64,000 nucleotides of DNA from a virus, in IMG/VR virus record IMGVR_UViG_3300050120_000152, positions 248,001 to 312,000 of that record; one strand, written 5' to 3'. Position numbers and translations under genes: made by a program. Shown one piece after another: positions 2,642 to 51,398 of this stretch (position 1 is its first letter; every line of letters starts with the position of its first letter). A model generated the notes under the pieces. That model was not told the origin of the DNA. It ran no database searches and saw nothing but the letters and a program-made list of their open reading frames with translations.

Positions 2642-4972
2642 TTATGCATCCAAAAATTTATAACGACTGATATTTTCTATGGATGACAGTAATAAATAAT
2701 CATAATCTTTACCGATCTTACCCAAATCCATGTACCATAATAACATACCTTCATAATTGTTGAACATCCATTCAAGATTTTCAAAATTTCCGCAAAATAA
2801 TGCAGTGGTAGGATAATGTTCAATATCAAAATTGAATTTATTTTTGATATATTCTCTATCAAAAATACTGTTCATCTCTTTTTTTGATGTAATGACGATA
2901 CAATCATCGGTTTTTGCAAACTGAGATAATAAATCAACATCACGGGCGATATCATAAGCATATTCACGCTCATTCAATTCATCCAAGTTAACGAATAGAT
3001 GATACTTACTACGGTAATGATTTAATTGAATAACTTCTTTACACCAAAATAGTTTAACATATTTTGAAAATTCTACAGTAGAATTAGATTTAAATTCAAA
3101 ACGCTGTTTTAATCGCTGATCATAATAATGTTGATGTGGCTGAATCAAAAAATATTTAAATGATTTAGATTCAGGGAGTAAACTAACATACTTATGATAA
3201 TTATATTGTGGTATTAATAAGGTAAGGTTTCTATCGTCACGGATCAATTTTTTAATTTGTTCGATATCATAACTTATATCAATATCAGCGGTTTTAAATG
3301 ATAATACATAGATAGAAGTATCAGCTGTTAATTCACCTGCTAATTGATCGTCTTTTATTTTTTTGAATTTATTGCTACCGGGCTTTACTATCAATTTACC
3401 CTCAAAATAAACAGCATCTAATTCCGTATCGCGAAGAATTTTAAATGCGTCAGATAATCGGCTTAATATAGGTTTACCATCTACATTGAACGATGTATTT
3501 AATAGTACCCCATGCCCTGTAAATTTTTCAAGTTCACCTAATAGATCGTAAATCAATGAATTTTGGGCTTTGGTTACGGTTTGTAATCTTGCTGTATTAT
3601 CTTGATGTGTAATGGCAGGTAATCTTTCGCGCCACTCTTCTCTCACAGTAGCCACGAATATCATGTGCCGAGATTCTACACCTTCATCAAATTCAAAATA
3701 CTTAGTAGTATCCTCTAATCTTACCATAGGTGCAAACGGACGATACCATTCACGGTGTTTTACTTTATTATTAAGAATATCTTTCATATCACCTACCGGA
3801 TTACATATGATGCTACGATTACCCAAAGCACGAGAACCGTGTTCAGAGTTACCTTGAATCATACCAACGATATTACCTTCGGCAATAAATTGTGCTAATT
3901 CTTCTAGCTGGATATCTTCATATACTTTTAGATCATGTTCCTGTATATAAGTACCAAACTGGTTCTTATCAATAACAGGCGTGCCACTGTAGGTCAAATC
4001 TACTTGCTGTTCGGGATTCTGATACCATAATAATCCACCGGCTGCTATACCACAGTCATTGACGTTAGGTGGAACGAAAACCTTATTATTACGCAACTTG
4101 AGAAGCTTAGTATTTAATAACACATTGAGCGCACAACCACCAGCCATTGCGATTGGCATATCTGGATATTTGTTTAAATAAGGCTGCGCAAATTTAAAAA
4201 ATTGATTTTCAAATGCTTTCTGCGAAGTAGCTGCAATATCCCAAGCTAGTTGGCCTTCATATCGACTCGATTCCAAATCAAAATCATCAATTCCAATATT
4301 TTTAAATAATTCGGTTAGGGCTTCAAAGCGTACTTCAGCGCCACCTTGCACAGAGTTACCAATATAATTAAATTTTGAATAGAAGTGTTCGAAATGAGGT
4401 ACCCAATGATCACGAATAGTTCCGTAGGAACATAACCCCATAATTTTACCAGCATAGACCAAGTTACCGATGCTTAACGGTTCTTTTTTAATATCCTTAA
4501 GATAATCACATAAAATCATATATGGAAATCCTAAGTCTTGATTGAATTTATCAATCAATCGAATTCCATGTTGACGATTAGCATTATATACGTTGAAGTA
4601 CCCATTATCACCACCGCCGTCGAAAGTGAATATTAATGCTTCTTTATAGGGCGATTGATAAAATGCAGTTGCTGCATGAGCTGTATGATGGTCATAACCC
4701 AATGCTTCCTTGGTATGAAATTTTGGTTTTATGTGTTGAACATAATCTGTCAAATAAACATCCACATCACTTCTATCCGTAGTGGAAAGAAGATATTCCG
4801 TAATTTCATCAAATATTATTTGTGGATGTTTACTTGGCATATAAGTGGTTAAGCCGATATTCTTCGAATTTAACCATCTTTCAACTTCAATTACCCTATA
4901 TTCACCCTTATAATACATTGCTATTGCAGCATTATGTGATCCATAAGCAGATATTATCAATTTATCTTTCAT
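2642..4972 (-). CDS. Carbamoyltransferase (NodU/CmcH family) with extra C-terminal domain
   Basis: Clear NodU/CmcH-type O-carbamoyltransferase, which moves carbamoyl from carbamoyl phosphate through a carbamoyl-adenylate to a hydroxyl group. The N-terminal part has SHNAAIAM near residue 12, then a His-rich YDHHTAHAATAF near 93 and FTFDGGGDNG near 115 typical of the Kae1-like domain. The YrdC-like half contains GNSEHGSRALGNRS near 375 and LLNTSFNVDGKP near 490. The family core ends near residue 545; the last 230 residues are an additional domain I do not recognise. A TATAAATA late box 24 nt upstream implies late expression. Family members act on sugars, antibiotics and, in a reported phage-derived case, 5-hydroxymethylcytosine. 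With glycosyltransferases on both sides, a sugar acceptor is the simplest guess. Confidence 0.88.
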   Translation of the reverse strand: MKDKLIISAYGSHNAAIAMYYKGEYRVIEVERWLNSKNIGLTTYMPSKHPQIIFDEITEYLLSTTDRSDVDVYLTDYVQHIKPKFHTKEALGYDHHTAHAATAFYQSPYKEALIFTFDGGGDNGYFNVYNANRQHGIRLIDKFNQDLGFPYMILCDYLKDIKKEPLSIGNLVYAGKIMGLCSYGTIRDHWVPHFEHFYSKFNYIGNSVQGGAEVRFEALTELFKNIGIDDFDLESSRYEGQLAWDIAATSQKAFENQFFKFAQPYLNKYPDMPIAMAGGCALNVLLNTKLLKLRNNKVFVPPNVNDCGIAAGGLLWYQNPEQQVDLTYSGTPVIDKNQFGTYIQEHDLKVYEDIQLEELAQFIAEGNIVGMIQGNSEHGSRALGNRSIICNPVGDMKDILNNKVKHREWYRPFAPMVRLEDTTKYFEFDEGVESRHMIFVATVREEWRERLPAITHQDNTARLQTVTKAQNSLIYDLLGELEKFTGHGVLLNTSFNVDGKPILSRLSDAFKILRDTELDAVYFEGKLIVKPGSNKFKKIKDDQLAGELTADTSIYVLSFKTADIDISYDIEQIKKLIRDDRNLTLLIPQYNYHKYVSLLPESKSFKYFLIQPHQHYYDQRLKQRFEFKSNSTVEFSKYVKLFWCKEVIQLNHYRSKYHLFVNLDELNEREYAYDIARDVDLLSQFAKTDDCIVITSKKEMNSIFDREYIKNKFNFDIEHYPTTALFCGNFENLEWMFNNYEGMLLWYMDLGKIGKDYDYLLLSSIENISRYKFLDA

Positions 4973-5673: not shown

Positions 5674-7059
5674 TTAATTTTCAACTATTTTATCAATCTT
5701 CTTCAACCAATCCTTCGATGCGCTGTGTGGCCATACGGTATATGTCTTAGCAATGCGGTCGGGGGGTGACATGTAAATGAAGCGATAGTCGATCCATTCA
5801 CCTTTCAGATATTCCTTAATTTCTGATGCAGATAAATCTTTTCGATATATTTCAGAGCCATACTCATCATGGCACCCGACATAGCAGAAATCATAATCAT
5901 CTATAATCATGACATTACCTTGATCGTCTAAGGTATTAAGATCATTCTTATGAATGCAAACTCTAATATCGTTTGATCGGGAAATAGTGGATTTCCACTC
6001 TTCAGCAGAATCATAAGTCTTATATCCTGTTAACGTTGGTTCAGTACGATCTAAAACGCATTGCTGAACACCGCGATATTTAAATGCTACACCAGAAAAT
6101 TCTTCATAATCCTTTACTGTTCGTACAGTACCAAACCCATATTTACCAAAATCTATCTGAGATTGATCTTCACCATCCATACCAAATAAAATACGATTGC
6201 GCTTATGAGAATTAACATTCTTTTCCCACCAATCTTCAGATATTTTACCTTTCTGTTTTTGTTGGGTTGTATGGTCATCCCACACTTTTACGCGGCCTGC
6301 CCGTGTATATTCATGCCAACATACTACAATATTGGGATGATATAAATCATATCCATGAGTATAAGCTCTTACGCCGATGGATACTTCTTCACCATGGAAG
6401 AAAAATTGTGGGTCATGCTGAACTTCTTCGGCAAATATTCCATCAGCGAATGCAAAATGTGCTGAATAAAATCTTGCATGTATAGGTTTTGTGCGAGTTT
6501 TCCAATCATCTATTGTTGATGGTCTTGTAAAATGGGTGCCTTCGGGAATAAATCTATCAAAATCCATTTTCCACGGTTCCTGAATACGAGCAGCTGGATC
6601 ATTCTGTGGATCAAAAGAAGATACATAAGCCGTCAATAGAGGTTTCGGGCTTACATCTCTTACAGATTCTAGCATGTCAATCAATACAGTATCCCAGCCC
6701 TGTATGAATCTATGATGTGAATCTAATTGTAGGGTATATTTTTCTTTCTTATAATGCTGTTGTATTTTGTTTCTAGCCCAGCATGCCCCATTCGTTTTTA
6801 AATAATGCAAGTCGATTAATTCAATTGTTGCGCCGTTTAAGGTAAGTACGTGTACGTCATCATCTAAAACGGTTTCAGAATTTACTACATCAAATTTTTT
6901 ATCAAGAAAATCTTCAATAGTTTCATCTGCGCCATGTTGCCAGCAAACTACTGCGCGAATTAACTCAGGGTGGTTAGCATTATTGATTAGATCAGTTAAA
7001 GTTGGGATTAACTGGGGATCTCTATAACTAGCGATTTGTACGAAAATTGTGTTATCCAT
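5674..7059 (-). CDS. Glycosyltransferase of the GlcNAc (Skp1 GlcNAc-transferase-like) family
   Basis: Residues 1 to about 280 match the Pfam GlcNAc family: IFVQIASYRDPQL at 5-17, GACWARN at 91-97, and YTLQLDSHHRFIQGWD at 108-123, where Asp113-Ser-His is the DxH-type metal site. The founding member is the Dictyostelium enzyme that adds GlcNAc to hydroxyproline of Skp1; bacterial and phage members have unknown acceptors. The C-terminal 160 residues are additional and unrecognised. The start ATG is preceded by a good GAGGAT ribosome site. It is the first gene of the cassette, flanked by a terminator on each side, so it forms its own transcript. It could act on the Thr/Pro-rich linkers of the tail proteins (see findings); this is inference. 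Confidence 0.78.
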   Translation of the reverse strand: MDNTIFVQIASYRDPQLIPTLTDLINNANHPELIRAVVCWQHGADETIEDFLDKKFDVVNSETVLDDDVHVLTLNGATIELIDLHYLKTNGACWARNKIQQHYKKEKYTLQLDSHHRFIQGWDTVLIDMLESVRDVSPKPLLTAYVSSFDPQNDPAARIQEPWKMDFDRFIPEGTHFTRPSTIDDWKTRTKPIHARFYSAHFAFADGIFAEEVQHDPQFFFHGEEVSIGVRAYTHGYDLYHPNIVVCWHEYTRAGRVKVWDDHTTQQKQKGKISEDWWEKNVNSHKRNRILFGMDGEDQSQIDFGKYGFGTVRTVKDYEEFSGVAFKYRGVQQCVLDRTEPTLTGYKTYDSAEEWKSTISRSNDIRVCIHKNDLNTLDDQGNVMIIDDYDFCYVGCHDEYGSEIYRKDLSASEIKEYLKGEWIDYRFIYMSPPDRIAKTYTVWPHSASKDWLKKIDKIVEN

Positions 7060-7649: not shown

Positions 7650-8522
7650 TCACGCTGTAAACGTCATTTTTTCCATATGCATGTCAAAATAATATAAGAC
7701 TTCATTAATATTTGATATAACATACAAACCGGGAGTGTCATAATATGATTGAAATTTCCTAGATAATAAATCACCCCAATCAAAATCGGGAGATATATGA
7801 TATAACTTAATGATTTGATTATTAGATTGTTGCAATTTCAATCTAAGATCAGACTCAAATTCATTCATTACCATAAACATATAAATGTTTGATGGCATAT
7901 CGGCATTACGAGCAATAACTAATATATTTAATTTGTTTTTTATGGCGATCAATTGATCGCTAATAGACGATCCAATCCAATCTTTCCATGATACCCAAAA
8001 CCCGCCTCGTTTGGGTTTGCCTGTATAAATGGTTTTACCATACACGAGGTTTGGCCATAATGGAATATTTGTAGGCAATTTATCCTGTCTGCCTAACTCT
8101 ACCCAAGCCTCTCTAGTTTTTAATTTTAATGATCGTGCATAATCTCTAGCATCATGAAATGAGCGATATATCTTTTTTGAATCGGGGAATGTATTATAAG
8201 TTCCAGTCCAATCGCCCCAAGATACCCATCCCTCGTTAACATAGGTTCTGGCGGGATTTTTTGGAATTCTTGCTGGAATATTCATATTCCACCAACGTAT
8301 AAAATCATTATGTGAGCCTAAACATTCACCCCGGACAATTGTTCTGGCTTCTTCGAAGGGTAATACAAATCTTGCTGGCCCACGTTTTTTGTTAGTTTTT
8401 TCTATTTTTACTGGTCTACCACTACGATCTTTGCGATTTCTGACCGTATTTCTAGGTCTACCAAAACCTGTTTTTTTGAGTTTTCGTCTGGGTTTTTTAA
8501 TTTCTGTAATTTTTTCGTTCAT
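7650..8522 (-). CDS. Basic DNA-binding-like protein with two phage-integrase-type repeat units
   Basis: A 290 aa protein. Residues 1-50 are strongly basic with GRPR (21-24) and SGRP (34-37), AT-hook-like. Two units follow, at about 55-108 and 121-186. Each runs from an F-x-E/D-AR helix through a Trp-containing helix and an IP-x-x-P turn to a Y...GWVSWGDWTG or GFWVSWKDWIG ending, the pattern of the Pfam INT_rpt unit found beside some integrases. No tyrosine or serine recombinase domain is present, so it is not an integrase. Residues 190-290 look like a separate alpha/beta domain with no recognisable motif. It shares a short upstream region with the divergent membrane-protein gene at 8563. Confidence 0.6.
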   Translation of the reverse strand: MNEKITEIKKPRRKLKKTGFGRPRNTVRNRKDRSGRPVKIEKTNKKRGPARFVLPFEEARTIVRGECLGSHNDFIRWWNMNIPARIPKNPARTYVNEGWVSWGDWTGTYNTFPDSKKIYRSFHDARDYARSLKLKTREAWVELGRQDKLPTNIPLWPNLVYGKTIYTGKPKRGGFWVSWKDWIGSSISDQLIAIKNKLNILVIARNADMPSNIYMFMVMNEFESDLRLKLQQSNNQIIKLYHISPDFDWGDLLSRKFQSYYDTPGLYVISNINEVLYYFDMHMEKMTFTA

Positions 8523-8534
8523 TGTTAATCTTCA

Positions 8535-8542
8535 AATAAATA
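8535..8542 (+). promoter_or_regulatory. Late promoter candidate, AATAAATA
   Basis: AATAAATA on the plus strand, 20 nt before the ATG at 8563. Confidence 0.4.
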
Positions 8543-8562
8543 ATGTATAATATCAAGAATAT

Positions 8563-9078
8563 ATGGATCGCTTATCTAAATTTAGACAATACTCATTGGC
8601 ATTGGCCGAAACCGTCGATGCATGGCGAATCATTCCACGCTTAATGATTGTAGCTTACGGTGCGCTTGTGGTGAATCTTTATTCATGGTACAAGTCGATC
8701 CCGACCTTCATGCAGCAAAAATGTGATGCCGCCGTGCTACAGATATTTATAACAGGCGGAATGGCATTGCACGATGCTCAAGCGTTGGCATGCACCGTAA
8801 TCGACGTTGTAGGTGGCCCTACACCTGCACAATCTACTTTCGTTACAACCATCATAGGTTTATCAACTGGTATATTTGGATTGTATACTGCTACAGGTAA
8901 AAAATGGGAACAATTAGATTTTAATTATCATCAATTTAGCCAATTTGGCCCTCCCAATAATGGCAATTATAATGGCTATGATATTGATTCGGCGAAGCAG
9001 GGTGAAGTTGCTATGGGACAACCTGCAACACCGATTACCCCATCTAATACTCCATCTATTACCCAACCAGTGAGTTAG
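8563..9078 (+). CDS. Two-helix membrane protein, possible holin
   Basis: A 171 aa protein with two hydrophobic segments, at about 24-44 (IPRLMIVAYGALVVNLYSW) and 92-110 (TFVTTIIGLSTGIFGLYTA). A short amphipathic loop lies between them, and a polar tail of about 60 residues ends in Pro/Thr/Ser-rich sequence. This layout matches small phage membrane proteins often annotated as holins, but no lysis enzyme sits beside it, so the function is uncertain. It is the only plus-strand gene in the first 21 kb and has its own late-type box. Its 3' end overlaps the convergent rnh gene by 20 bp. The Thr/Pro-rich tail resembles, in miniature, the linkers of the tail proteins. Confidence 0.5.
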   Translation: MDRLSKFRQYSLALAETVDAWRIIPRLMIVAYGALVVNLYSWYKSIPTFMQQKCDAAVLQIFITGGMALHDAQALACTVIDVVGGPTPAQSTFVTTIIGLSTGIFGLYTATGKKWEQLDFNYHQFSQFGPPNNGNYNGYDIDSAKQGEVAMGQPATPITPSNTPSITQPVS

Positions 9079-10006
9079 TATTTAACATTTTTGTAAATGC
9101 CTTACCATTGGCAGAAATTCGTTCTAACTGATGCTTACCACAGAATTTTATAAATTGAATTAAATTAAATTTACCACGCGTTTCCATGGCTTTCTTAATG
9201 CAATTAATCATGATGGTTTTTATTTCTGTGGGTTGATTTCTTAATCCCATCAATAATAAATTCTCTTCAAATAATTCCTTAGTTTTATAATGATGTACCT
9301 TTAAATTGCCGTCATCGTCATATACTTCTACATCAAATTCGTGAGCCATAATATTAGTTAACTGAAAATTATCGCCAGCATAGGCTTCATCAATAGCTTT
9401 CTTACGTAGTCTAGGATAACTTGATTGTACATTATCCCCAATATCTCCACGTAAACATTTTTCAAACATGAAATGTTCATAATCGAAATTCCATTCTAAT
9501 AATGTTCGTTCTTTTTCTTTATCAGGTTCTATCAACTTTACATTAGGGTGATTCAGTAATTGCATAAAATCTTTATCGGAACTTATGATGACATGATTAT
9601 CATACGGATAGGCATCAACGAAACCCGCTACAAGATCATCACACTCAAGTAAGTTGTGTTTCAATACTATTAATGATGTATGATCCCGTAAATATTCATA
9701 AAATTCATTGATATGACTGTCAAATACTTCTAACTGTTCTTGTTCTTTTTTAGTAAGATTTTGTCTGCGTTGACCTTTATATTTTTTATGGCTAATCGAA
9801 GCATATTTGGTATATTCTTTTCTCCAAGAGTGGGAGTCGAAGATTGCCACAATTTCATCCGGTTGATATTTTTTATTTAAATATTGTAATGATGTTAGTG
9901 CCGAATGATGACACATACTGATTAATATGTCATCATGCTCTTTTATGTTGGCATAAAAAGTACGATACAACATATTTGATATATCAATTTCTAAATAAGT
10001 TTTCAT
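9059..10006 (-). CDS. rnh: RNase H / 5'-3' exonuclease (T4 Rnh type, FEN-1 family)
   Basis: At 315 aa it is close to T4 RNase H (305 aa). The acidic metal-binding residues of the FEN family are in order: LEIDISNMLYRTFY near the N-terminus, VAIFDSHSWRKE, LLECDDLVAGF, IISSDKDFMQLL and CLRGDIGDNVQ. The last is the helix-hairpin-helix/K-binding region where T4 has its two C-terminal Asp residues. It removes RNA primers from lagging-strand fragments. It is the last gene of a minus-strand replication run and overlaps the gene upstream by 4 bp (ATGA), a sign of translational coupling. Its 3' end is antisense to the end of the membrane-protein gene. Confidence 0.88.
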   Translation of the reverse strand: MKTYLEIDISNMLYRTFYANIKEHDDILISMCHHSALTSLQYLNKKYQPDEIVAIFDSHSWRKEYTKYASISHKKYKGQRRQNLTKKEQEQLEVFDSHINEFYEYLRDHTSLIVLKHNLLECDDLVAGFVDAYPYDNHVIISSDKDFMQLLNHPNVKLIEPDKEKERTLLEWNFDYEHFMFEKCLRGDIGDNVQSSYPRLRKKAIDEAYAGDNFQLTNIMAHEFDVEVYDDDGNLKVHHYKTKELFEENLLLMGLRNQPTEIKTIMINCIKKAMETRGKFNLIQFIKFCGKHQLERISANGKAFTKMLNTNSLVG

Positions 10007-10284
10007 TCGTTATCCGGTTCTTTACCCATATTCTCTTTAATCATATTACGCACATGTGCTTTTTCAAAAATAGTGAACAAATAACTTTCTATCACTTGTT
10101 CATCTGCTATACCTTTATATCCCTTATCACGTAGTCCCATAATGAATGCATTATTCCAGTCCATTTCGACTTCAATACCTTCAGCATCATCCTTTAATAT
10201 TTTCATATCAAAGAATGGTACTGGTGAAGCCTGTATTTTTTGTGTCTTTTTGTATTTAAAAAACTCTTTAATTGTCTTAAACAT
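10003..10284 (-). CDS. Hypothetical protein, 93 aa, between 45 and rnh
   Basis: A small protein with a basic, helical N-terminus (residues 1-18, many Lys and Phe) and an acidic C-terminal half. No family recognised. It is 12 bp after the clamp gene and overlaps rnh by 4 bp, so it is co-transcribed and co-translated with the replication genes. A role at the replication fork or in late transcription is possible by position only. I compared it mentally with T4 gp33 and RpbA and saw no convincing match. Confidence 0.6.
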   Translation of the reverse strand: MFKTIKEFFKYKKTQKIQASPVPFFDMKILKDDAEGIEVEMDWNNAFIMGLRDKGYKGIADEQVIESYLFTIFEKAHVRNMIKENMGKEPDNE

Positions 10285-10296
10285 AGAAATCCTTGA

Positions 10297-11037
10297 TTAA
10301 TGTTCTGCTATTACATATATATTAAAGGAATTTACGTTCACTCTCAACGCACCCCTATCTGAAATTTGCACAGTTAACTTACCGTCTAAATCAGATGCTG
10401 CCTTAAATAGAGGTAAAATATACTTAATTTCATATTCATGGAAGAAATTTTGTTTGGGTGAATTGGGTAAAATTTCAAATGATTCTGAAACAATATGGTC
10501 AAATAGATCACCTTCTACGTCAGTAGTTTTGAAAACTACATTACCATTTTTTTCATTAGAAAATGATATTTTTGATGTGTTAATAGCTGCAAATGTTTTT
10601 TGCATGATTCGTAATGTATCATCAGAAATAATAAATTCATGACAAAATGGGTCAACAAATTTCTTAGGAGCCTTAATACGTAATGAGTCAAAACATGAAA
10701 ACTCAATTTTAGTTTTTTTATTAGCCATTTGTAGTTTTTTTACCATAACATCCCCATTATCTTTTTCTTTACCATCGAATGACATGGTAATGGGATCGGG
10801 CTCCAGAATGGCAATTCGTGTTCCCAAGGTCTTTACTCTTCCTATACCCAAGGAATCAAATTCTAGATTATCTGGAACATTATCCGTTTCAAGAATGAAT
10901 GTTCCTTTAGAATTATCCATAGCTTGTCCTCGTACAATACCCTTTTCTAAAGCTATTGTATCAATACCGCATAATGAACAGGTTTTAATCAATTTTTGTA
11001 TATATTTTAAAGTTGGTTCGCTTAGCTTTTCCATCAT
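10297..11037 (-). CDS. 45: DNA polymerase sliding clamp (gp45-like)
   Basis: A 246 aa protein, near the 228 aa of T4 gp45. It shows the two-domain pattern of strands around short helices seen in PCNA-like clamps, for example an N-terminal helix followed by strands and a C-terminal ending in strand-rich LRVNVNSFNIYVIAEH. It lies 24 bp downstream of the polymerase gene in the same direction. The clamp tethers the polymerase to DNA, and in T4 it also activates late transcription with gp33 and gp55. The clamp-loader genes 44 and 62, which lie beside 45 in T4, are not here. Identity rests on fold pattern, size and position rather than a diagnostic motif. Confidence 0.7.
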   Translation of the reverse strand: MMEKLSEPTLKYIQKLIKTCSLCGIDTIALEKGIVRGQAMDNSKGTFILETDNVPDNLEFDSLGIGRVKTLGTRIAILEPDPITMSFDGKEKDNGDVMVKKLQMANKKTKIEFSCFDSLRIKAPKKFVDPFCHEFIISDDTLRIMQKTFAAINTSKISFSNEKNGNVVFKTTDVEGDLFDHIVSESFEILPNSPKQNFFHEYEIKYILPLFKAASDLDGKLTVQISDRGALRVNVNSFNIYVIAEH

Positions 11038-11061
11038 TATTCTCGTTAGTTTAGTAGTATA

Positions 11062-13809
11062 TCAGTATTCGAACATTTCGTCTATCAATATGGTTTTGTG
11101 AGTTGGTGCATACTCATCAATAGCATCCAAAATGGATTGTAATGGTTTATCAACCAATCTATCTAATTGGCCTTTACGATCTACTAGTGGTGAAAAATGC
11201 TTTGTGAACCATTCCGGTGGAACCTTTGTATCAGTTGGCAATGCAATACTTTTGAATCTATCAAATTTCTTAGTTAAATAGTATGTTTTAATTTTCATAC
11301 CTGAAACAATTTTTGGAGATTCTTTATCATCATAAATTTCCAAACATTTATTATAAAACATTGCAGCAGCCACATGACCCGGCAATTTAACTTTAGGGCC
11401 ACCCGGAATTTGCTTATTAAATTGATTGGTATAATCTTCAATATTCTTGATTCCTTTAGGTAAACCAATAGAAGTAATCTTATCCTCAATTAGGATATCC
11501 TTATATGCGACAACTCGTTTTGCAATATCCTTCCATGGATTACCCTCTAGTAATTCTTCTACGAACCTAGTTAGCTTTTTGCTAATAGGTTTTGGTATGG
11601 TGGTTTTTTTGATTTGAAGCCCCATGACTTTCATTTTCGGTTTGTCTAACTTAACACCTTCATTATATAAAAGATGCATAACATAATATTTCTTTTTGAT
11701 GAAAATTGAATTATCAGCTATAACGTCCAATTCACCCTTAAGAATAGTATCGAACGTATCATTACACATTAGATATTCGCGAGAAAATGAAACAAGTTCT
11801 TCATTGACTATTGATGCAATAATTTTTGCAGCTTCATAAACCTCATCAATGTCGTCACCTAAATTAACATTATCCAATGAAAAGTAGGTAGAGTCGGTGT
11901 CATTGTAAATGATATTATCATCAGGGAATGTATAATCATCATTGAGATTTTGGGCCGATTGCCATACATGAACATTCTTTCTAGCAATAACGTTAGCTAT
12001 TATCATATTCATGAACATTAAAGCTTCTCTACCTGTTCTGGTAGTTGATTCGGCAATTCGTAAATCAAAAAATCTAAAATAAATGTTACCGATAGCTCCA
12101 TATGCAGAGTTTAATAAGATTTTTTTAATAAACTGTAAACGGTGATAATAATCATATTTTATCTTATATTCATCATATAATTTAACATCATTTTCTGCCA
12201 TCAATATACCTTCTCTGATCATCGGACTATTTTTGTCATATGATGGTGGATTAGGCTTATCTTTATATGAAAGAGTAATGTCTTTCATGAGATTTTTATG
12301 TTTCTTGGCTAAATTCTTATATTCTACGCGCTCTTCGTACCATTCTCGTAGAATATCAGAAATAATACCATTTTTGTTCTGATCAAATACTGTACCATTC
12401 GCGCTTAATGAACACTTTCTTGATTTTAATATATCTTTCCATTCATTGGCTAAATGCGTTTCAGATTCACCATCTTCTTTTATTAAAGTCAATGATTTAC
12501 TAGATTGCATGGTGATTTCTTCGTATGCCACGAAGTTATTATAAAATTGGCCTATGATGGTATCAGGACTGGCATTCAATGCTCTGATAATTGAAGGATA
12601 TAGAGATGAGAAGTCGATTGCTGCTACTTTCTTTTTCATACCCACTTTTGGATATGTAACTAATGCACCAGCAAACTTACCATTATCGGAAGAGTAATCA
12701 CGTTCCTTTGCATCAGGAACAATAAGATTTAGTGTATGGTGACATTTGTTATTAATAGTAGCTTCTACTACTCGGATAGTACCCAATACGTCATTCATTA
12801 ATACCGTGGCTGAATGGTACGTTGCAATAGCAACGCCCATATATCCAAGAACATCTTCAAAACCCTTCAATACCTCAGTATCTCTTACGTTGTATCTGCA
12901 AAATTTAGGGAAATCCTCATAATACAAATCGTACAATGATCCATCATATTCCAATTTGGTCATATGTGGTAAAATTTCTTCGGAAATGGCATCAAGAGTG
13001 AAGGATGGTCTAGTGGTAGTTTCAAATTTCTTGAACATCTCAAGATAGTCGATATGGACACGTCCAAAAATATCGACCTGTAAAGTTTTGCTGCCTTTGA
13101 AAATTTCCACTTCTTTGAGTTTAGGAACTGGAGCATTATGAAATGATAAACGATTAGCCATAGCCTCGCCATAGCGTTCAAGCATTCTCATATAAAGATA
13201 GGGAACGTCAAAGCCCGAGCTATTCCAACCACTGATGATATCGGAATTTTCTATTTCGTCAAGGAATCTCAACAAGAGTTCCTTTTCACTTTTACATACA
13301 ATAATTTCCGATAGTTCATGTAAATCGGCTGGTATGTCTTTCTTAGTCCATTTACCATTATCTGGTAGAATAACTAATAATATCATCTTGTCTAGATGGT
13401 GATGATATATTGATATTGCACTTACTGGTGCATAAGGATTTTCTGGTGAAGAGAAGCCACGATTGGGATCATAATCAACTTCTATGTCGAATAAGGTAAA
13501 ATTTAATTTGCCTGTTGGCTTACCATAATATTGCTCTGATAATACCTTGTAAATAGGATTAATATCTGACTCAAACATTTTAATATTACGATCATGATGA
13601 TCTTTTTTGGCTTCGTAAAACTCATATCCTGTAGAATATTCTAATTTTGATAATGATTTTCCGTTAATATCTTTGTATTTTCCATGCTTATCTTGTACAT
13701 AGAAAAAGTATGGTGCATCGTACATCTTAGTTTCAATTTTATTATTTTCACGTTCCCAAACAAGGACGCTTCTTTTATTTTCTGAAAGTGCTGCCGAAAT
13801 ATATGTCAT
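11062..13809 (-). CDS. 43: DNA polymerase, family B (gp43-like)
   Basis: A 915 aa replicative polymerase with proofreading exonuclease, close to T4 gp43 (898 aa). Exo I is LFDIEVDYD with Asp108 and Glu110, Exo II is GWNSSGFDVPYLY, and Exo III is YNVRDTEVL. Polymerase motif A is DFSSLYPSI near 397, motif B is KKILLNSAYGAIGN near 563, and motif C is YNDTDSTYF near 635 with both catalytic Asp residues. The reading frame is continuous, with no intron or split. It is preceded by a strong terminator at 13824-13851, so it is either read through from dsbA or driven by a promoter in the 13810-13883 gap that I could not identify. Confidence 0.96.
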   Translation of the reverse strand: MTYISAALSENKRSVLVWERENNKIETKMYDAPYFFYVQDKHGKYKDINGKSLSKLEYSTGYEFYEAKKDHHDRNIKMFESDINPIYKVLSEQYYGKPTGKLNFTLFDIEVDYDPNRGFSSPENPYAPVSAISIYHHHLDKMILLVILPDNGKWTKKDIPADLHELSEIIVCKSEKELLLRFLDEIENSDIISGWNSSGFDVPYLYMRMLERYGEAMANRLSFHNAPVPKLKEVEIFKGSKTLQVDIFGRVHIDYLEMFKKFETTTRPSFTLDAISEEILPHMTKLEYDGSLYDLYYEDFPKFCRYNVRDTEVLKGFEDVLGYMGVAIATYHSATVLMNDVLGTIRVVEATINNKCHHTLNLIVPDAKERDYSSDNGKFAGALVTYPKVGMKKKVAAIDFSSLYPSIIRALNASPDTIIGQFYNNFVAYEEITMQSSKSLTLIKEDGESETHLANEWKDILKSRKCSLSANGTVFDQNKNGIISDILREWYEERVEYKNLAKKHKNLMKDITLSYKDKPNPPSYDKNSPMIREGILMAENDVKLYDEYKIKYDYYHRLQFIKKILLNSAYGAIGNIYFRFFDLRIAESTTRTGREALMFMNMIIANVIARKNVHVWQSAQNLNDDYTFPDDNIIYNDTDSTYFSLDNVNLGDDIDEVYEAAKIIASIVNEELVSFSREYLMCNDTFDTILKGELDVIADNSIFIKKKYYVMHLLYNEGVKLDKPKMKVMGLQIKKTTIPKPISKKLTRFVEELLEGNPWKDIAKRVVAYKDILIEDKITSIGLPKGIKNIEDYTNQFNKQIPGGPKVKLPGHVAAAMFYNKCLEIYDDKESPKIVSGMKIKTYYLTKKFDRFKSIALPTDTKVPPEWFTKHFSPLVDRKGQLDRLVDKPLQSILDAIDEYAPTHKTILIDEMFEY

Positions 13810-13823
13810 TAATTGCCTCTAAT

Positions 13824-13851
13824 AAAAAAGCGCAGACTTCTCTGCGCTTTT
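13824..13851 (-). terminator. Rho-independent terminator between dsbA-like gene and 43
   Basis: An 11-bp stem (AAAAGCGCAGA with TCTGCGCTTTT) around a 4-nt loop, followed on the minus strand by a T tract. It lies 33 bp beyond the stop of the DsbA-like gene and 15 bp before the polymerase start. Confidence 0.8.
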
Positions 13852-13883
13852 AGTATGACACATGTTGTTCAGTTAATCAAGAT

Positions 13884-14201
13884 TCAGTCTTCATCAGATA
13901 CCGAAGTAGTGGTATCGTTATTATTTGATACCATTATAGCTTCATAAGTATCTTCAATGGCAGTATGCTCTGCACTAACATCTTCAAAATTATGATCTGA
14001 AACGATTTTAGCAATCTTTGGAATGATTTTCTTCGGAATACCATAATCACTGTTGAGGGCAGTTACGAAACCTTTTAATACTTCGCGAGCATCTTTAATT
14101 TCTTGCTGTACGCCAGACATTTCATAAAAAATATCTCTAATTTTCTTCTTTTCTTTTGGATCAGATGGAAGGGTAAATCCTAAATCGACGGGCTTTAACA
14201 T
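13884..14201 (-). CDS. dsbA: DsbA-like double-stranded DNA-binding protein
   Basis: A 105 aa protein whose helical core resembles T4 DsbA: a first helix with KEKKKIRDIFYEMSG, then EIKDAREVLKGFV, then a Lys-rich turn (GIPKKIIPKIAKIV) and an acidic helix ending in DTYEAIM. T4 DsbA is 89 aa and binds DNA near late promoters, and it lies close to rnh in T4 as well. The last 20 residues are Asp/Ser/Thr-rich and probably disordered. It begins 23 bp after the 2OG-oxygenase-like gene, in the same operon. The match is a pattern match without a unique motif. Confidence 0.62.
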   Translation of the reverse strand: MLKPVDLGFTLPSDPKEKKKIRDIFYEMSGVQQEIKDAREVLKGFVTALNSDYGIPKKIIPKIAKIVSDHNFEDVSAEHTAIEDTYEAIMVSNNNDTTTSVSDED

Positions 14202-14224
14202 TTTATTTTCCTATAGTTAATGTT

Positions 14225-14848
14225 TTAATGAAACCAAGTTCTATAATCACCGGGGAAATCTGTTGGTTTATAGATAAAGGGATCTTTTGCTGTTACATGA
14301 CAGCGAATGCAATTCAAGTTTCCCAATGAAATTTCCGTAAAGGTATTTAAGAAATTATCATTAGCTGGAAACATGAGCATTGTTCCAGCTTTAGGTGTTA
14401 TTGTCAAGTTATGATTAAAAAATTCTAGCTTACCGCCAAAAGATTCCATCAAAGTATCCGTAATAGAAGTATCTTTTGAGGAAGATAAGAAAATCATGAT
14501 GGTAAAATCAATGTCTCTGGATTTTGTCCATTTACCGTTGAAATACATACCATTGTCTGGCTTTGGTGGTTCGCCAAGATAGCCTTCTGTCATCCATTCA
14601 AAATTAAATGGAGATAAATTTAGGGTAATGAAATTATAATAAACTTCGGCTTTATCTAAAAAAGTATCTATACGATCCATTAATCTAATTTCTGCTAATT
14701 GATTAGTTTTTAACGTTTTAATGGGATGGTTTTTAGCATCTCTATTAGGAATAGTATGTTTAAGATTTAATATAATATCCTCACATTCGTTAAATGAAAT
14801 GAAATCTTCTATTAGGATGAAGGGTGAGCGGCTTGGTTTCTGTGACAT
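14225..14848 (-). CDS. 2OG-Fe(II) oxygenase-like protein with apparently degenerate iron site
   Basis: A 207 aa protein with the jelly-roll signature of phage 2-oxoglutarate/iron oxygenases: DIDFTIMIFLS (112-122), FGGKLEFF (137-144), ITPKAGTMLMFP (150-161) and, near the end, IRCHVTAKDPF (181-191). In active members an HxD motif precedes the first strand and a His follows the Pro-Ser/Ala turn. Here the first site reads Lys96-Pro-Asp98 and the second reads NDNFLN (163-168), so both iron-binding His appear replaced while the Asp and a candidate 2OG-binding Arg182 remain. It may be a pseudo-enzyme or bind metal differently. It is the first gene of the replication operon, behind a sigma70-like promoter embedded in an inverted repeat. 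Confidence 0.6.
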   Translation of the reverse strand: MSQKPSRSPFILIEDFISFNECEDIILNLKHTIPNRDAKNHPIKTLKTNQLAEIRLMDRIDTFLDKAEVYYNFITLNLSPFNFEWMTEGYLGEPPKPDNGMYFNGKWTKSRDIDFTIMIFLSSSKDTSITDTLMESFGGKLEFFNHNLTITPKAGTMLMFPANDNFLNTFTEISLGNLNCIRCHVTAKDPFIYKPTDFPGDYRTWFH

Positions 14849-14855
14849 GTTAATA

Positions 14856-14895
14856 ATTCTCTCATATGCTAAACAATATTATCATATGAGAGAAT
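14856..14895. repeat. Inverted repeat overlapping the early promoter, possible operator
   Basis: Perfect 13-bp arms ATTCTCTCATATG (14856-14868) and CATATGAGAGAAT (14883-14895) separated by 14 bp. The right arm lies in the -10/-35 spacer and touches the -10 box; the left arm covers the likely start of transcription. There is no T tract after it on the minus strand, so an operator or leader hairpin is more likely than a terminator. Confidence 0.6.
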
Positions 14896-14904
14896 CTATG
14901 TCAA
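14878..14904 (-). promoter_or_regulatory. Sigma70-like early promoter for the replication operon
   Basis: On the minus strand TTGACA (14899-14904) is followed after 15 bp by GATAAT (14878-14883); TAATAT at 17 bp is an alternative -10. It drives the 2OG-like gene, dsbA and possibly 43, 45 and rnh. No late box is seen before these genes. Confidence 0.5.
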
Positions 14905-14907
14905 CAA

Positions 14908-16938
14908 TTATGGTGGACATGTTCCCCACACTGGTTTTGGTTGTGTCCATGCTGGTGTATTTTGTTTGAAGCCTCCCGGTAAAGTTGGGATATTTGTAAC
15001 GCACCATCCAGATAAATTTTGATTAAATATAGAAGCACCATTAAACATTAATGTCATATCTGTTACATTATGTACATTCCATGAACCTATATTTTGATTA
15101 AAGCTTGTAGATGCGCTAAACATATTACTCATGGAAGTTACGTTGCCAGTATTCCAACCTGAGATATTTGCATTAAATGTTGCATTTCTAGCAAACATGT
15201 GAGCCATTGTAGTTACACTACTCACATCCCAACCTGAAATATCACCATCATAAATAGTTACATCCCCGAATTCATTACCAAACATATAACTCATATCTAT
15301 TACGCTACTGGTATCCCATGCGGTTAAATCCTGTGTAAATGCTGAAGAACCAGAAAACATGTTGTTCATGTCTGTTACACTACTCACATTCCAACCTGAA
15401 ATATCTCCATTAAATATTGTATTATTGGCGAACATATGATCCATAGCTGTAACCGTAGAAGTATCCCATGAAGAAATATCTCCATTAAATATTGTATTAT
15501 TGGCGAACATATTTGACATAGTTAATACATTATGGGTATCCCAACCTGAAATATCTCCATTAAACCCAGAACCGACAAACATGTAACTCATATCAGACAC
15601 ATTTCCAGTATTCCAACCTGAAATATCTTGATTGAAAGCACTTGCTCCTGAAAACATCCCATTCATGTTAGTTACATTACTAGTATTCCATGAAGAAATA
15701 TCTTGGTTAATTGTGCTGTCAGCAAATGTTCCACTCATCGAGGTTACATTACTGGTATCCCAACCTGAAATATCACCAGCGAACACCGTATTACCACCAA
15801 ATAACGAATCTATGTTAGTTATATTTGCTGATAATGTTGTCGGTACATCTGTTATATTACTAGAAATTGAGTAATAATTAATTATATTATTACCCCAATC
15901 AGTTATTGCCACGGTAGTACCTTCATCCATGTCGAAACCAATACTCACATAATTACCATATATTTTCACAGTATAATTTTCAATAGCATCATATACGTGA
16001 GAATATCCACTATCACATCCAACATCACCTTCCTCACCAGAGCCGTCTGGTATAGAATCTACATTTCCATCGCCCCAATCAATAGAAGCTGAGTTAGAAG
16101 CACCGCATCCATAAAATGTGCAATTTTGTATTTCAGTAAAGTCAAGAGTAAATGGGGTAGATGAACCAACTGATGGAGTAGGAGTTGGTACGTTTGCAAC
16201 AGGTAATTGTTTAACATCTATTATACTAAAATTATATGTCGTACCCTTGGCTGCTGGGAGTGCATAATTTGGGCTATCAAACAAGTAAACTTTAATTGTT
16301 CCACCAGATGTATTAGAAGTTGTTTTGAATGATGATCTAAAACTTCCGCTAAACTGTTCTTTTAAATTAAAGACGATAATGGGTGATCCATCTTGCAAAT
16401 CTAATTCTATTCTTATAAATTGGCAGGTGCCCTCATTAAATCTTACATAAAATTCATAAATTTGCGATGCTGATAAGTTTAATGGCGCAGTGAAATTAAC
16501 TGAACCATTATTATTAAAATTTGATTTAAATTGTAAGGAATTATCATTATTGATGATAATCGATCCATTGGTAGCTGTCCACATGATACCATCAGTTAAA
16601 TCTGGATAATTAGTGGCGGAACTTGAGGGGGTGGGAGTAGGAGTCTGGGTCGCTTTCGGTGTTCTGGTTATAGCTGGTGTTGGCGATGATGTAATAGTAG
16701 GAGTAGGAGTAACTAATCGCTGTTTAGCCAATTCGGCATAACTTAATAATGGATACAATTGTGAATGGGAATGGGTTTCGTTTAAACCAGTATCATCCAT
16801 TAAGACTTCATAGCTCATTTCATCATCGACTATGCCACTTACAATAGCCACTTTGCCACTACGATAAACTAATTCTATACTTAATACCCAAGCAAAATCA
16901 CCAACATTATATATGTATCCATGTATATTATAATTCAT
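14908..16938 (-). CDS. Surface adhesin-like tail protein with DUF285 (BspA/lipoprotein) repeats
   Basis: Residues 1-75 form a small N-terminal domain and 77-110 a Thr/Pro/Ser-rich linker. The middle (about 115-235) looks like a beta-sandwich, followed by a PKD-like strand region. About 385-660 hold ten 25-residue repeats of the type W(D/N)TSNVT-x-M-x-x-MF...FN-x-DISG, the Mycoplasma DUF285 family known from surface proteins. It ends with a Cys-containing cap. A receptor-binding or fibre role is likely. I prefer the ATG at 16938 (676 aa, 11-bp overlap with the gene upstream) over 16971 (44-bp overlap); neither has a good ribosome site. It is last in the tail block and could recombine through its repeats. 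Confidence 0.72.
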   Translation of the reverse strand: MNYNIHGYIYNVGDFAWVLSIELVYRSGKVAIVSGIVDDEMSYEVLMDDTGLNETHSHSQLYPLLSYAELAKQRLVTPTPTITSSPTPAITRTPKATQTPTPTPSSSATNYPDLTDGIMWTATNGSIIINNDNSLQFKSNFNNNGSVNFTAPLNLSASQIYEFYVRFNEGTCQFIRIELDLQDGSPIIVFNLKEQFSGSFRSSFKTTSNTSGGTIKVYLFDSPNYALPAAKGTTYNFSIIDVKQLPVANVPTPTPSVGSSTPFTLDFTEIQNCTFYGCGASNSASIDWGDGNVDSIPDGSGEEGDVGCDSGYSHVYDAIENYTVKIYGNYVSIGFDMDEGTTVAITDWGNNIINYYSISSNITDVPTTLSANITNIDSLFGGNTVFAGDISGWDTSNVTSMSGTFADSTINQDISSWNTSNVTNMNGMFSGASAFNQDISGWNTGNVSDMSYMFVGSGFNGDISGWDTHNVLTMSNMFANNTIFNGDISSWDTSTVTAMDHMFANNTIFNGDISGWNVSSVTDMNNMFSGSSAFTQDLTAWDTSSVIDMSYMFGNEFGDVTIYDGDISGWDVSSVTTMAHMFARNATFNANISGWNTGNVTSMSNMFSASTSFNQNIGSWNVHNVTDMTLMFNGASIFNQNLSGWCVTNIPTLPGGFKQNTPAWTQPKPVWGTCPP
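14965..15780 (-). repeat. Tandem 75-bp repeats encoding DUF285 units
   Basis: Ten imperfect 75-bp units in tandem. Two neighbouring units share an exact 40-bp stretch (15398-15437 and 15473-15512, exactly 75 bp apart), which points to a recent unit duplication or gene conversion. Confidence 0.85.
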
Positions 16939-17347
16939 TATTTTTAGCCAATTGTATGATTTCACCATCATTACAGGATATAGCTAATTTAAATTCTATA
17001 TTTTTGGTACCATCTTCAAAATTTATGGGAAGGGTTACGTGTGCTTCATTATCCATTTCACATAAATTGGTCATAATTTCTTTACCTAATAGTGATATTT
17101 TACCAGAACCACAAGCATTTTTCAAACTTTCATATGAGTCCACATATAAAACGTTATCAGAGCCATAGACCACATTAATAATAGGAGATTCGCTTAAACA
17201 ATCAATAGTAACTTTAGTTGATACTGTAACAGGCTCATCTTCTATTGCTTCCACAATAGAAGATTTAAATTCAACCTCAGAATGTGCTAAATCTATATTC
17301 TCGGTAATAATATATTTTAATAATTTTTCTAAATTTTCAAATTTCAT
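16928..17347 (-). CDS. Hypothetical protein, 139 aa
   Basis: No family recognised. The sequence is acidic, with an N-terminal amphipathic helix (LEKLLKYIITE) and then alternating strands, suggesting a small beta-rich domain. Its ATG overlaps the stop of the 520 aa gene by one base, and its 3' end overlaps the adhesin start, so it is tightly coupled to both. Co-expression with a virion-like protein and an adhesin suggests a structural or assembly role, by position only. Confidence 0.6.
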   Translation of the reverse strand: MKFENLEKLLKYIITENIDLAHSEVEFKSSIVEAIEDEPVTVSTKVTIDCLSESPIINVVYGSDNVLYVDSYESLKNACGSGKISLLGKEIMTNLCEMDNEAHVTLPINFEDGTKNIEFKLAISCNDGEIIQLAKNNEL

Positions 17348-18909
17348 TAATTTAGTCCATTATTTACGGCTGCTTGTCCATTGGGTGCACCGGGAGCGGG
17401 CTGTCCAGTAGGGTTTTGTGGGTTTTGCGGAGGTTGAGGGTTTTGTGGATTCTGTGGATTCTGGTTATTTTGTTGGGGATTCTGTTGATGTTTAGCTTCA
17501 TCGGCATTATATTGTGTAGTCAATTGAGCAGCCTTTATTCTAGCATTTAATTGATCAGTATCACATTGAAACATAGCTTTTTTGTAAGCTTGTGTTTCAG
17601 CATCATCAGTCGGAACTATTTTATATTTGTCCTGTAACTGAAGCTTTTGTTTTTGTAATGTTTGAACATTATCGAATTGATCTTCATTTAACATTTTTAC
17701 CGCATCCAATAGAAACGATTTTGATTCGAATGCTGAATCTCCACCATTCTGACCTTTGCTAACATTATATCGAGCTAATTCAGCATATTTCTTTGCTTCT
17801 TTTGCTTTTTTCTTTTGAGCTTCTACTTCTGCACCAACTCTAGCCAACTCTTCTTGACGTTTTACTTCATGATCAGACGCGATAGCTGACCATTCAGCCT
17901 GTTTGGCACGCGCTTCTTCAGCAGCGGCTTCAGCTTGGGCTTCTTGGGCATTGGCTTGAGCTTTAAGCATGGCTACAATACTCTTAAGAATTGATTCTTC
18001 GCCGTCACCTTCCGGTTCAGTACCAAAATCTTCTACATTATCGCCTTCACCATTTTCATCACCCATACCCGGATTTAGCTCGTCGGCAGCACCTTGTACG
18101 CCCGATTCCTGACCTTGTGTGTTAGGTTCTCCCATTCCGCCTATATCAGCCCCTTGGTCGTCCATCGGAGTACTATTAGCATCCATATTAGGCTGTTCTA
18201 AGGAATTATTATCGCCCATACCACCAGCGTCACCATCCATTTCATCACTACCGTCGCCAAATTGATCAAATGATTTGTCAAAACCCGCAGTATCATCGTC
18301 ATCGGGGCTTACACCAGTATCAGGCTCTTTTGATGCCATATCAGCATTATAAACTACATCTTTTGGAATGATAGGAAAATCCACGGTAATAATTTCAAAT
18401 TTATCTCTCAAATTATATAAAATTTCAGCAAGAGAATTACCTTGTAAATTGATACCATTTTTCTTATTATCTTTATTATCAGCTAATTGAACCGCAATGG
18501 TTTCTTCAAATTCTTTAGCTTGATCACCGCGCACAGTAATACGCATGATATTACCTTTATCATCTTCTACGCCATAAGAAACCACACCCACATCATTTCC
18601 TGATGATTCGGTATCAGCATTTTTCAATCGTGATACAATATCGTTCATATCAAAATCTTCATTGGTTCTTCTACGTAATAACCATGCTTTGAAACCAGTT
18701 TTTTTCTTTTTAGCTTTGACGCGATCAAGCTCTGCACGCATTTTGGAATATTTTTCTTCATCAGCCTTTTCTTTAGGCGCATTTGCTCTCCAAACATGTT
18801 CACTACTTTTATGTTCTCGGCGGCTGTCACCAGATGGATTAGCTGCTATTGATCCAGCGCCTATTGATCCACCCATTGCGGTTTCTTGTAAATATTTTTT
18901 GAAACTCAT
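17347..18909 (-). CDS. Putative internal head or scaffold-like protein with capsid-targeting-type N-terminus
   Basis: A 520 aa protein of low complexity. It begins MSFKKYLQE-TAMGG, matching T4 capsid-targeting peptides that end in L/I-x-E and are cut by gp21. It continues with a basic stretch (about 45-85), a small domain (about 85-195), an Asp/Gly/Asn-rich acidic region (about 195-310), an Ala/Glu/Lys coiled coil (about 310-390) and a Pro/Gln/Asn-rich tail (about 478-520). Coiled coil plus acidity fits a prohead core or internal protein, but I cannot match it to gp22 or another named family. It has a CATAAATA late box and is followed without a gap by the 139 aa gene. Confidence 0.55.
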   Translation of the reverse strand: MSFKKYLQETAMGGSIGAGSIAANPSGDSRREHKSSEHVWRANAPKEKADEEKYSKMRAELDRVKAKKKKTGFKAWLLRRRTNEDFDMNDIVSRLKNADTESSGNDVGVVSYGVEDDKGNIMRITVRGDQAKEFEETIAVQLADNKDNKKNGINLQGNSLAEILYNLRDKFEIITVDFPIIPKDVVYNADMASKEPDTGVSPDDDDTAGFDKSFDQFGDGSDEMDGDAGGMGDNNSLEQPNMDANSTPMDDQGADIGGMGEPNTQGQESGVQGAADELNPGMGDENGEGDNVEDFGTEPEGDGEESILKSIVAMLKAQANAQEAQAEAAAEEARAKQAEWSAIASDHEVKRQEELARVGAEVEAQKKKAKEAKKYAELARYNVSKGQNGGDSAFESKSFLLDAVKMLNEDQFDNVQTLQKQKLQLQDKYKIVPTDDAETQAYKKAMFQCDTDQLNARIKAAQLTTQYNADEAKHQQNPQQNNQNPQNPQNPQPPQNPQNPTGQPAPGAPNGQAAVNNGLN

Positions 18910-23334: not shown

Positions 23335-23342
23335 TATTTATT
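23335..23342 (-). promoter_or_regulatory. Late promoter candidate, AATAAATA
   Basis: AATAAATA on the minus strand, 19 nt before the gp15 ATG, overlapping the last base pairs of the upstream fibre gene. Confidence 0.4.
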
Positions 23343-25518: not shown

Positions 25519-25526
25519 TATTTATG
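25519..25526 (-). promoter_or_regulatory. Late promoter candidate, CATAAATA
   Basis: CATAAATA on the minus strand, 22 nt before the ATG at 25497; it touches the stop codon of the giant gene. Confidence 0.42.
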
Positions 25527-36018: not shown

Positions 36019-36048
36019 CAAGAGAATCCATCATTAGATTGTATGATC

Positions 36049-50531: not shown

Positions 50532-51398
50532 ATGTTAATCTATAAAATAACACATATGAATAGCGGTAAATCATACATAGGACTTACAACGCGTAAAACG
50601 GTATATCAACGATATAGAGAACATTTTTACGTTGCAAAACGTCATCATAATAAAAAAGGTAGTCCACATAAATTCAAAGATATTTTACATGAAGAAAATT
50701 ACGATAAATCTAAATTTAATGTTACTATATTAGATACGGCGTCAACTTTAATAGAACTTATTGAAAAAGAAGCTTATTATATAAAAAAATATGATACGGT
50801 TAATTCTGGATTTAATGTAGTAAATGGCGGAAGTGATACAGTGCATAGAGAGGCGGTATCTAAAGGATTGATAAAATATTGGGCAAATGTTGACGAAACC
50901 AAAAGACAAGAAAGAATAGATATACTTAAACATATGATATCAGAAAATAAAGAGAATTATGTCAATAGAGCAAAAAGTTTAGCAATCAAAAACTGTTTAC
51001 CTATAAAACTTATTTTATATGGGAATGAACACACATTCCAATCTTTATATTCTAATAATGGCTTAAAAAAATTTTGTGATATTAACAACATTAATTTTTA
51101 TGATTGTAAACAAAAGGCCAAGGGTACAATAGAGCAAGACCATGAAATCAAATGTTATTTCTTAGATATTAATGGTAATGAAATTAAATTTAATACAACA
51201 AGAAAAAAATTTGAAAAAAGTAAATATACAAAAACGAAATATAAATCTTATACTTTATTATCACCAAATAATAAAAAAACTGTTATTACTAATTTAAAAC
51301 AATTCTGTCATGAACATAGTCTGTGTATAAAAAATATATATGGAATATTAAACGGTAAAGAAAAGAGTCATAAAGGATGGAAAATATATAATGCTTAA
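50532..51398 (+). CDS. Free-standing GIY-YIG homing endonuclease (Seg-like)
   Basis: A 288 aa protein. The GIY-YIG domain is at 1-95: MLIYKITHMNSGKSYIGLTT (GIY and YIG elements), then VYQRYREHF with the Arg, and LIEKEAYYIKKYDT with the catalytic Glu, closing in GFNVVNGG. The remainder is Lys/Asn-rich with short DNA-binding repeats (a nuclease-associated modular unit), ending HKGWKIY. It lies between helicase and gene 47 as a mobile insertion and overlaps gene 47 by 8 bp. Base composition is more AT-rich than the neighbours. It has its own late box, while the genes around it look early, as seen for T4 Seg proteins. Confidence 0.88.
   Translation: MLIYKITHMNSGKSYIGLTTRKTVYQRYREHFYVAKRHHNKKGSPHKFKDILHEENYDKSKFNVTILDTASTLIELIEKEAYYIKKYDTVNSGFNVVNGGSDTVHREAVSKGLIKYWANVDETKRQERIDILKHMISENKENYVNRAKSLAIKNCLPIKLILYGNEHTFQSLYSNNGLKKFCDINNINFYDCKQKAKGTIEQDHEIKCYFLDINGNEIKFNTTRKKFEKSKYTKTKYKSYTLLSPNNKKTVITNLKQFCHEHSLCIKNIYGILNGKEKSHKGWKIYNA

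Follow-up and report, generated by a model that had tools for sequence, protein, structure and literature searches.

Gene organization of the locus

IMGVR_UViG_3300050120_000152 is a 340,344-bp record of a T4-like jumbo myovirus, of which we analysed bases 248,001–312,000 (64,000 nucleotides, hereafter the window; positions are those of the window unless stated otherwise). Within the phage collection, the cultured phages nearest to it are Xanthomonas phage XacN1 and the Stenotrophomonas phages CM1 and RAS14. The minus strand of the window encodes a 461-residue GT60-type (PF11397) glycosyltransferase (5674–7059), identified from Pfam, motifs and a structural model; a NodU/TobZ-type O-carbamoyltransferase (2642–4972), identified from Pfam and alignment with TobZ; a 282-residue HtrL-like putative glycosyltransferase (1793–2641); and a 567-residue protein in which an HtrL_YibB domain is fused to a second GT-A domain (HtrL-GT; 40–1743), identified from PF09612 and a model. 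The same gene order is found in XacN1, CM1 and RAS14, where the block from GT60 to HtrL-GT is flanked by the DNA polymerase region and the baseplate genes.

The gene coordinates and identities of the initial annotation hold. Of the two proteins called HtrL-type, HtrL-GT matches PF09612 (3e-17) and contains a second glycosyltransferase-like domain, whereas the shorter protein has no Pfam match and resembles HtrL by eye, with orthologues in the same place in XacN1, CM1 and RAS14. The carbamoyltransferase assignment is borne out by matches to PF16861 (1e-57) and PF02543 (1e-24).

At least part of these genes had been placed under late promoters, which is clear for the carbamoyltransferase gene only, with a perfect late-promoter-like TATAAATA at −30. 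The HtrL-GT gene has a TATAAATA site with one mismatch at −35, and no convincing TATAAATA site was found upstream of the GT60 gene. A GIY-YIG homing-endonuclease-like gene (50532–51398), located between a helicase gene and a gp47-like gene, also has TATAAATA 28 nt upstream. TATAAATA is not enriched in the window but rarer than chance (10 observed versus 21 expected), and we therefore retain the promoter evidence only as a remark on the carbamoyltransferase.

Thr/Pro linkers in tail-module proteins

A 24-residue T/P/S scan of the proteins recovers the Thr/Pro/Ser linkers that had been noticed in the minus-strand genes at 14908, 23341, 25522 and 41882, and gives their lengths as 43, 259, 114 plus 72, and 43 residues, respectively. 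The carriers are tail-module proteins with a modular architecture in which a linker is combined with a DUF285, DUF5122 β-propeller, laminin-G-like or lysozyme head. Thus, the linker of gene 14908–16971 (16591–16719) precedes a DUF285-repeat head, that of gene 23341–25497 (24370–25146) a DUF5122 β-propeller head, the longer one of gene 25522–36021 (26413–26754) a Laminin_G_3 lectin-like domain, and that of gene 41882–44323 (43574–43702) a phage lysozyme domain. The 72-residue segment of gene 25522–36021 (25525–25740) is the bare C-terminal tail of a 3,499-residue baseplate protein, after which a head domain is absent. The RAS14 counterpart likewise ends after its linker, and it is possible that a head has been lost or exchanged here.

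The window linkers contain 30–42% Thr and 18–23% Pro. Shuffling the rest of the protein never yields a linker for genes 14908 and 23341, and shuffles of the remaining sequence of genes 25522 and 41882 yield at most 24–29 residues of linker. The Thr and Pro codons within the linkers are mixed, indicating that these are not simple DNA repeats; it is the protein sequence, not a repeat in the DNA, that seems to be kept. The linkers have the character of mucin-type acceptors, being Thr/Ser/Pro-rich, unfolded segments of proteins that are presumably exposed at the surface.

About 12 further linker proteins are encoded elsewhere in the genome of the window phage, and six linker-bearing open reading frames or pieces of them lie at 228–241 kb of the record, just left of the cassette. 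Several paralogous linker proteins share a few head types, with three more DUF5122 heads and one more DUF285 head at 7955–18002 of locus L017. The sharing of exchangeable heads between these paralogues and genes 23341–25497 and 14908–16971 suggests a swappable adhesin array. In another viral contig (IMGVR_UViG_3300008448_000004) we observed 276 TPTxTPT motifs, of which those listed all fall in the first 5 kb, a region for a giant mucin-like protein.

The GT60 enzyme resembles mucin-type initiators

The protein encoded at 5674–7059 matches PF11397, ‘Glycosyltransferase (GlcNAc)’, with an E value of 1e-76 and 259 bits (cut-off 21) over profile positions 1–350 of 352. The enzyme that had been recognized by its Skp1-GlcNAc-transferase signature is thus an intact, full-length PF11397 (CAZy GT60-type) protein. 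It has the DxH motif that replaces DxD in GT60, together with the core Glu and C-His, and these residues (D113-S114-H115, that is DSH; E225; and the C-His H249) are invariant in 18 viral sequences. An AlphaFold2 model built from these 18 sequences (pLDDT 91, pTM 0.83) has as its top PDB matches human GalNAc-T2 (E 1e-8) and Toxoplasma GalNAc-T3 (3e-8), both of which are mucin-type initiators, with TM-scores of 0.4–0.5. A PDB search with GT60 or HtrL-GT profiles found no significant sequence match to solved structures, leaving fold comparison alone as informative. In a library of viral models the nearest neighbours are proteins of uncultured phages named ‘Glycosyltransferase, GlcNAc’, and neighbours are also found in giant viruses (Megaviridae, Pandoravirus).

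Trypanosoma cruzi TcOGNT and Dictyostelium Gnt1/Gnt2, which we take to be PF11397/GT60 members and polypeptide α-GlcNAc-transferases, resemble the phage enzyme in Pfam family, DxH motif and GT-A fold, and members of this group initiate O-glycosylation on mucin Thr. The phage enzyme, known here from sequence and model, differs from them in being cytoplasmic, in having an extra C-terminal β domain of about 130 residues and in its partner enzymes. The GT27 polypeptide GalNAc-transferases provide the best structural matches (6nqt, 6s24) and share the DxH motif and mucin-like acceptors, but sequence similarity to them is not detectable in the PDB search. The replacement of DxD by DxH in both GT27 and GT60 has been described, and a shared mode of Ser/Thr O-glycosylation is cited there (PMC7185993). 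The T. cruzi GT60 enzymes attach α-GlcNAc to mucin Thr, as assayed on the peptide KPPTTTTTTTTKPP (PMC3769586, PMC9472816). By analogy with its family, the phage enzyme would use GlcNAc as donor.

Hydroxyproline had been put forward as an alternative acceptor to Thr, with a 2OG-oxygenase-like protein (14225–14848, minus strand) as its candidate source. This branch of the proposal is not supported. As suspected, the protein is devoid of iron ligands: HxD and the distal His are both absent from its sequence, and the distal His is missing also in XacN1 and RAS14. It looks dead and probably has no enzymatic role in the system. The record of the window phage does encode an intact 2OG-Fe(II) oxygenase (HHD...H...R) elsewhere (65726–66532 of the record; L009 5726–6532), but 12 other GT60-bearing records yielded no match to PF13640. 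Because the T. cruzi enzymes act on plain Thr (PMC3769586, PMC9472816), hydroxyproline is not required, and we rejected it as a requirement given the dead-looking nearby oxygenase and the lack of PF13640 matches in those 12 records. For the window phage only, the intact oxygenase makes a hydroxyproline route possible.

Linkers and GT60 co-occur in viral contigs

Co-occurrence of linkers and cassette in relatives had been named beforehand as a point on which the proposal could be refuted, and it is observed among jumbo phages. All six GT60-positive jumbo records (the window phage, XacN1, RAS14, CM1 and two IMG/VR contigs) have dense linkers, with 40–90 TPTxTP DNA motifs each. By contrast, each of the 12 GT60-negative jumbo records (Phosso, Atu_ph07, Vibrio 2.275, PA5oct, SCTP-2, GAP32, CBB, XbC2, PBECO4 and three cyanophages) has 0–1 such motifs, with 0–2 for a reversed-pattern control. 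XbC2 also infects Xanthomonas yet has neither GT60 nor linkers, and host alone is therefore no explanation. The contrast concerns a single clade and so counts as one evolutionary event, which we judged insufficient by itself; we therefore turned to wider scans with two control sets.

GT60 scans and an HtrL-GT scan of uncultivated viral contigs gave 139 GT60 clusters (95% identity), of which 86 have linkers, counting within a locus stretch no longer than about 21 kb. Among loci longer than 15 kb, linkers are present in 83 of 124 GT60 loci (67%), compared with 3 of 35 loci (9%) in a baseplate-gene control set and 0 of 36 (0%) in a set defined by a GDP-mannose dehydratase cassette; at least two of the three linker-bearing baseplate-control contigs also carry GT60. 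In 59 loci, which form 43 clusters, a same-strand linker gene lies immediately upstream of GT60, mostly at a spacing of 16–100 nt, and none adjoins GT60 on the opposite strand among the loci examined. With clustering at 80%, this arrangement occurs in 23 of 59 linker-bearing clusters against 4.4 expected from random placement, and none of 20,000 simulations reached 23. In the window phage, the GT60 gene does not adjoin a linker gene.

These data bear on two other readings of the cassette. It could block superinfection by altering the glycans (LPS or capsule) on the surface of the infected host; cyanophage clusters with glycosyltransferases and carbamoyltransferases have been interpreted in related ways (PMC7824862), and HtrL-type genes are present in such clusters too. 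However, phages chosen by their GDP-mannose-dehydratase sugar cassette have linkers in 1 of 80 loci and GT60 in none, which indicates that GT60 is not of that class, and the position of GT60 directly behind tail-linker genes also speaks against this reading, which we consider unlikely. Alternatively, the enzymes could glycosylate mainly other virion proteins, such as capsid or tail tube, with the linkers being unmodified spacers that co-occur with them through, for example, shared ecology. Mycobacteriophages do glycosylate capsid and tail tube (PMC11600133, PMC12363180), linkers without GT60 exist, and the XacN1 glycoproteins (see below) are not identified in the text of PMC5852040. Against this stand the operon-like adjacency of GT60 to linker genes, the lack of both GT60 and linkers in Xanthomonas phage XbC2, and the fact that the GT60 family is known to accept Thr-rich mucin repeats, and we regard this second reading as quite improbable.

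The association of GT60 with linkers is strong but not obligatory. Among GT60-positive contigs above 110 kb, 19 of 20 have linkers, and this is the fair count because some large contigs were picked for linkers already seen nearby; six have no linker within 10 kb, five of which have linkers elsewhere. Starting instead from contigs selected for a linker DNA pattern, we find GT60 in 15 of 39, versus 0 of 29 controls. The other 24 linker-bearing contigs, many of which are fragments, have linkers without GT60, showing that the enzyme is not required for linkers. Mapped onto a GT60 tree with 188 rows, the linker label switches a minimum of 30 times, against a shuffled mean of 59, indicating that the trait partly follows the tree yet has been repeatedly gained or lost.

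PF11397 relatives are also found in many bacterial genomes, where Thr/Pro proteins are nearby in 16 of 80 loci; the remaining 64 have no linker within 10 kb, which is also true of many viral GT60 loci. In Sphingomonas metagenome-assembled genomes a Thr/Pro protein gene directly precedes the GT60 gene. Such adjoining genes were seen in Sphingomonas, Gemmatimonas, Bacteroidota and others (L535 6247–9993, L537 6318–10001, L523, L528, L509, L513 and L515), which suggests that there are bacterial mucin-type glycoproteins.

Partner enzymes of GT60

The model of HtrL-GT has two GT-A domains. Among its best matches are the protein or glycoprotein glycosyltransferases LH3, LARGE1 and COLGALT1, at low whole-length TM-scores, and this fold points to a putative glycosyltransferase function for HtrL. 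A scan for HtrL-GT by itself found 79 new loci; 76 of them have GT60 and 55 have linkers, which makes the tandem HtrL-GT an almost constant companion of GT60 in viral contigs.

The carbamoyltransferase core aligns with TobZ (E 9e-55), and the N-terminal Kae1-like and C-terminal carbamoyltransferase domains are both present. The protein shares this catalytic core with NodU/TobZ O-carbamoyltransferases but differs in having an extra C-terminal domain, and its proposed acceptor is a protein-linked glycan, not Nod factor or tobramycin. The extra part (2642–3355, about 240 residues) is less conserved than the core and looks HtrL-like by eye. Carbamoyltransferase genes occur in only a minority of GT60 loci, and carbamoylation of linkers, as initially envisaged, is plausible but not general. 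A UDP-galactopyranose mutase gene lies near GT60 in two phage contigs (L048 13094–14173; L050 8820–9932), paralleling the galactofuranose found on T. cruzi α-GlcNAc-Thr mucin glycans.

Phage glycosyltransferases often modify DNA, and the cassette might do the same, with glycosyltransferases acting on hydroxymethylated bases and the carbamoyltransferase adding a further decoration against restriction. The C-terminal domain of HtrL-GT does weakly match phrog_842, a β-glucosyl-HMC-α-glucosyltransferase (E 0.008). Nevertheless, a search of the genome of the window phage, whose record may be incomplete, found no member of PF00303, the family of thymidylate synthase and dCMP hydroxymethylase, and no TET/JBP was found in 23 GT60-positive, possibly incomplete records in a search run without a positive control. 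Polypeptides are the substrates of PF11397 and of its fold neighbours, and the genes travel with Thr/Pro tail proteins. DNA modification was disfavoured on the absence of PF00303 and TET/JBP, and we give it very little credence.

A model for glycosylated adhesin stalks

Enzymes resembling the initiators of protist and animal mucin glycosylation are present in hundreds of uncultivated relatives of the window phage as well. The enzyme genes travel with, and often directly follow, linker genes, and the virus thus probably sugar-coats its attachment stalks. We put the probability that the cassette performs phage-encoded mucin-type O-glycosylation of the phage’s own adhesin stalks at roughly three in four. 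The initial proposal that it glycosylates the Thr/Pro linkers is accordingly kept on the strength of co-occurrence, fold, gene position and literature, shorn of its hydroxyproline branch.

In our model, the GT60-type enzyme would be the initiating polypeptide O-glycosyltransferase. Acting in the cytoplasm, either ahead of assembly or while it proceeds, it would transfer HexNAc, most likely α-GlcNAc from host UDP-GlcNAc, to many Thr residues in the flexible linkers of tail and baseplate proteins. HtrL-GT, as the proposed chain extender, and the HtrL-like enzyme would lengthen the glycan, and in some phages, including the window phage, the carbamoyltransferase may place carbamoyl groups on sugar hydroxyls as an optional last decoration. 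The glycosylated linkers would form stiff, hydrated, protease-resistant stalks that hold exchangeable heads (β-propellers, DUF285 repeats and lectin-like domains) off the virion. We also favour, with less confidence, a wider reading in which GT60 and tandem HtrL-GT, joined in some cases by a carbamoyltransferase or a UDP-galactopyranose mutase, constitute a widespread mucin-type O-glycosylation module of viruses and bacteria. This module would be devoted to Thr/Pro adhesin stalks and would share ancestry with the mucin glycosylation of protists.

Mycobacteriophages Che8, Corndog and Myrna likewise encode glycosyltransferases that act on their own virion proteins, but the acceptors there are capsid and tail-tube proteins, whereas those proposed for the window phage are Thr/Pro adhesin stalks. 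According to the text of the XacN1 report, XacN1 virions hold at least two glycoproteins, and its authors proposed that the phage glycosyltransferases ORF328 and ORF334 make them (Yoshikawa 2018, PMC5852040). ORF334 is the GT60 orthologue (61% identity), and XacN1 has the same gene order and Thr/Pro linkers. That report is independent support, and the idea has thus been published in part, although its text does not name the acceptor sequence, the partner enzymes or the wider distribution (PMC5852040). In the literature outside subscription papers and preprints we found no prior description of phage GT60, HtrL and Thr/Pro linkers; as far as searched, the linker acceptor, the partner enzymes and their spread appear to be new to print.

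Virion glycosylation in phages has so far been described in a few mycobacteriophages and once, with no named acceptor sequence, in XacN1. Here the link between a specific enzyme family and a specific type of acceptor spans well over 100 distinct viral loci, which makes it testable in cultured phages. The work also suggests a role for HtrL/YibB-type proteins, whose function Pfam still lists as unknown, and points to a possible source of small bacterial mucin-type glycosyltransferases. Under the wider reading, phages could build glycosylated, swappable receptor-binding arms, and GT60 mucin glycosylation would be common to phages, bacteria and protists. If the model is correct, phages make their own mucins, which would matter for the construction and protection of receptor-binding arms, for the way antibodies recognize therapy phages and for the origin of protist mucin glycosylation.
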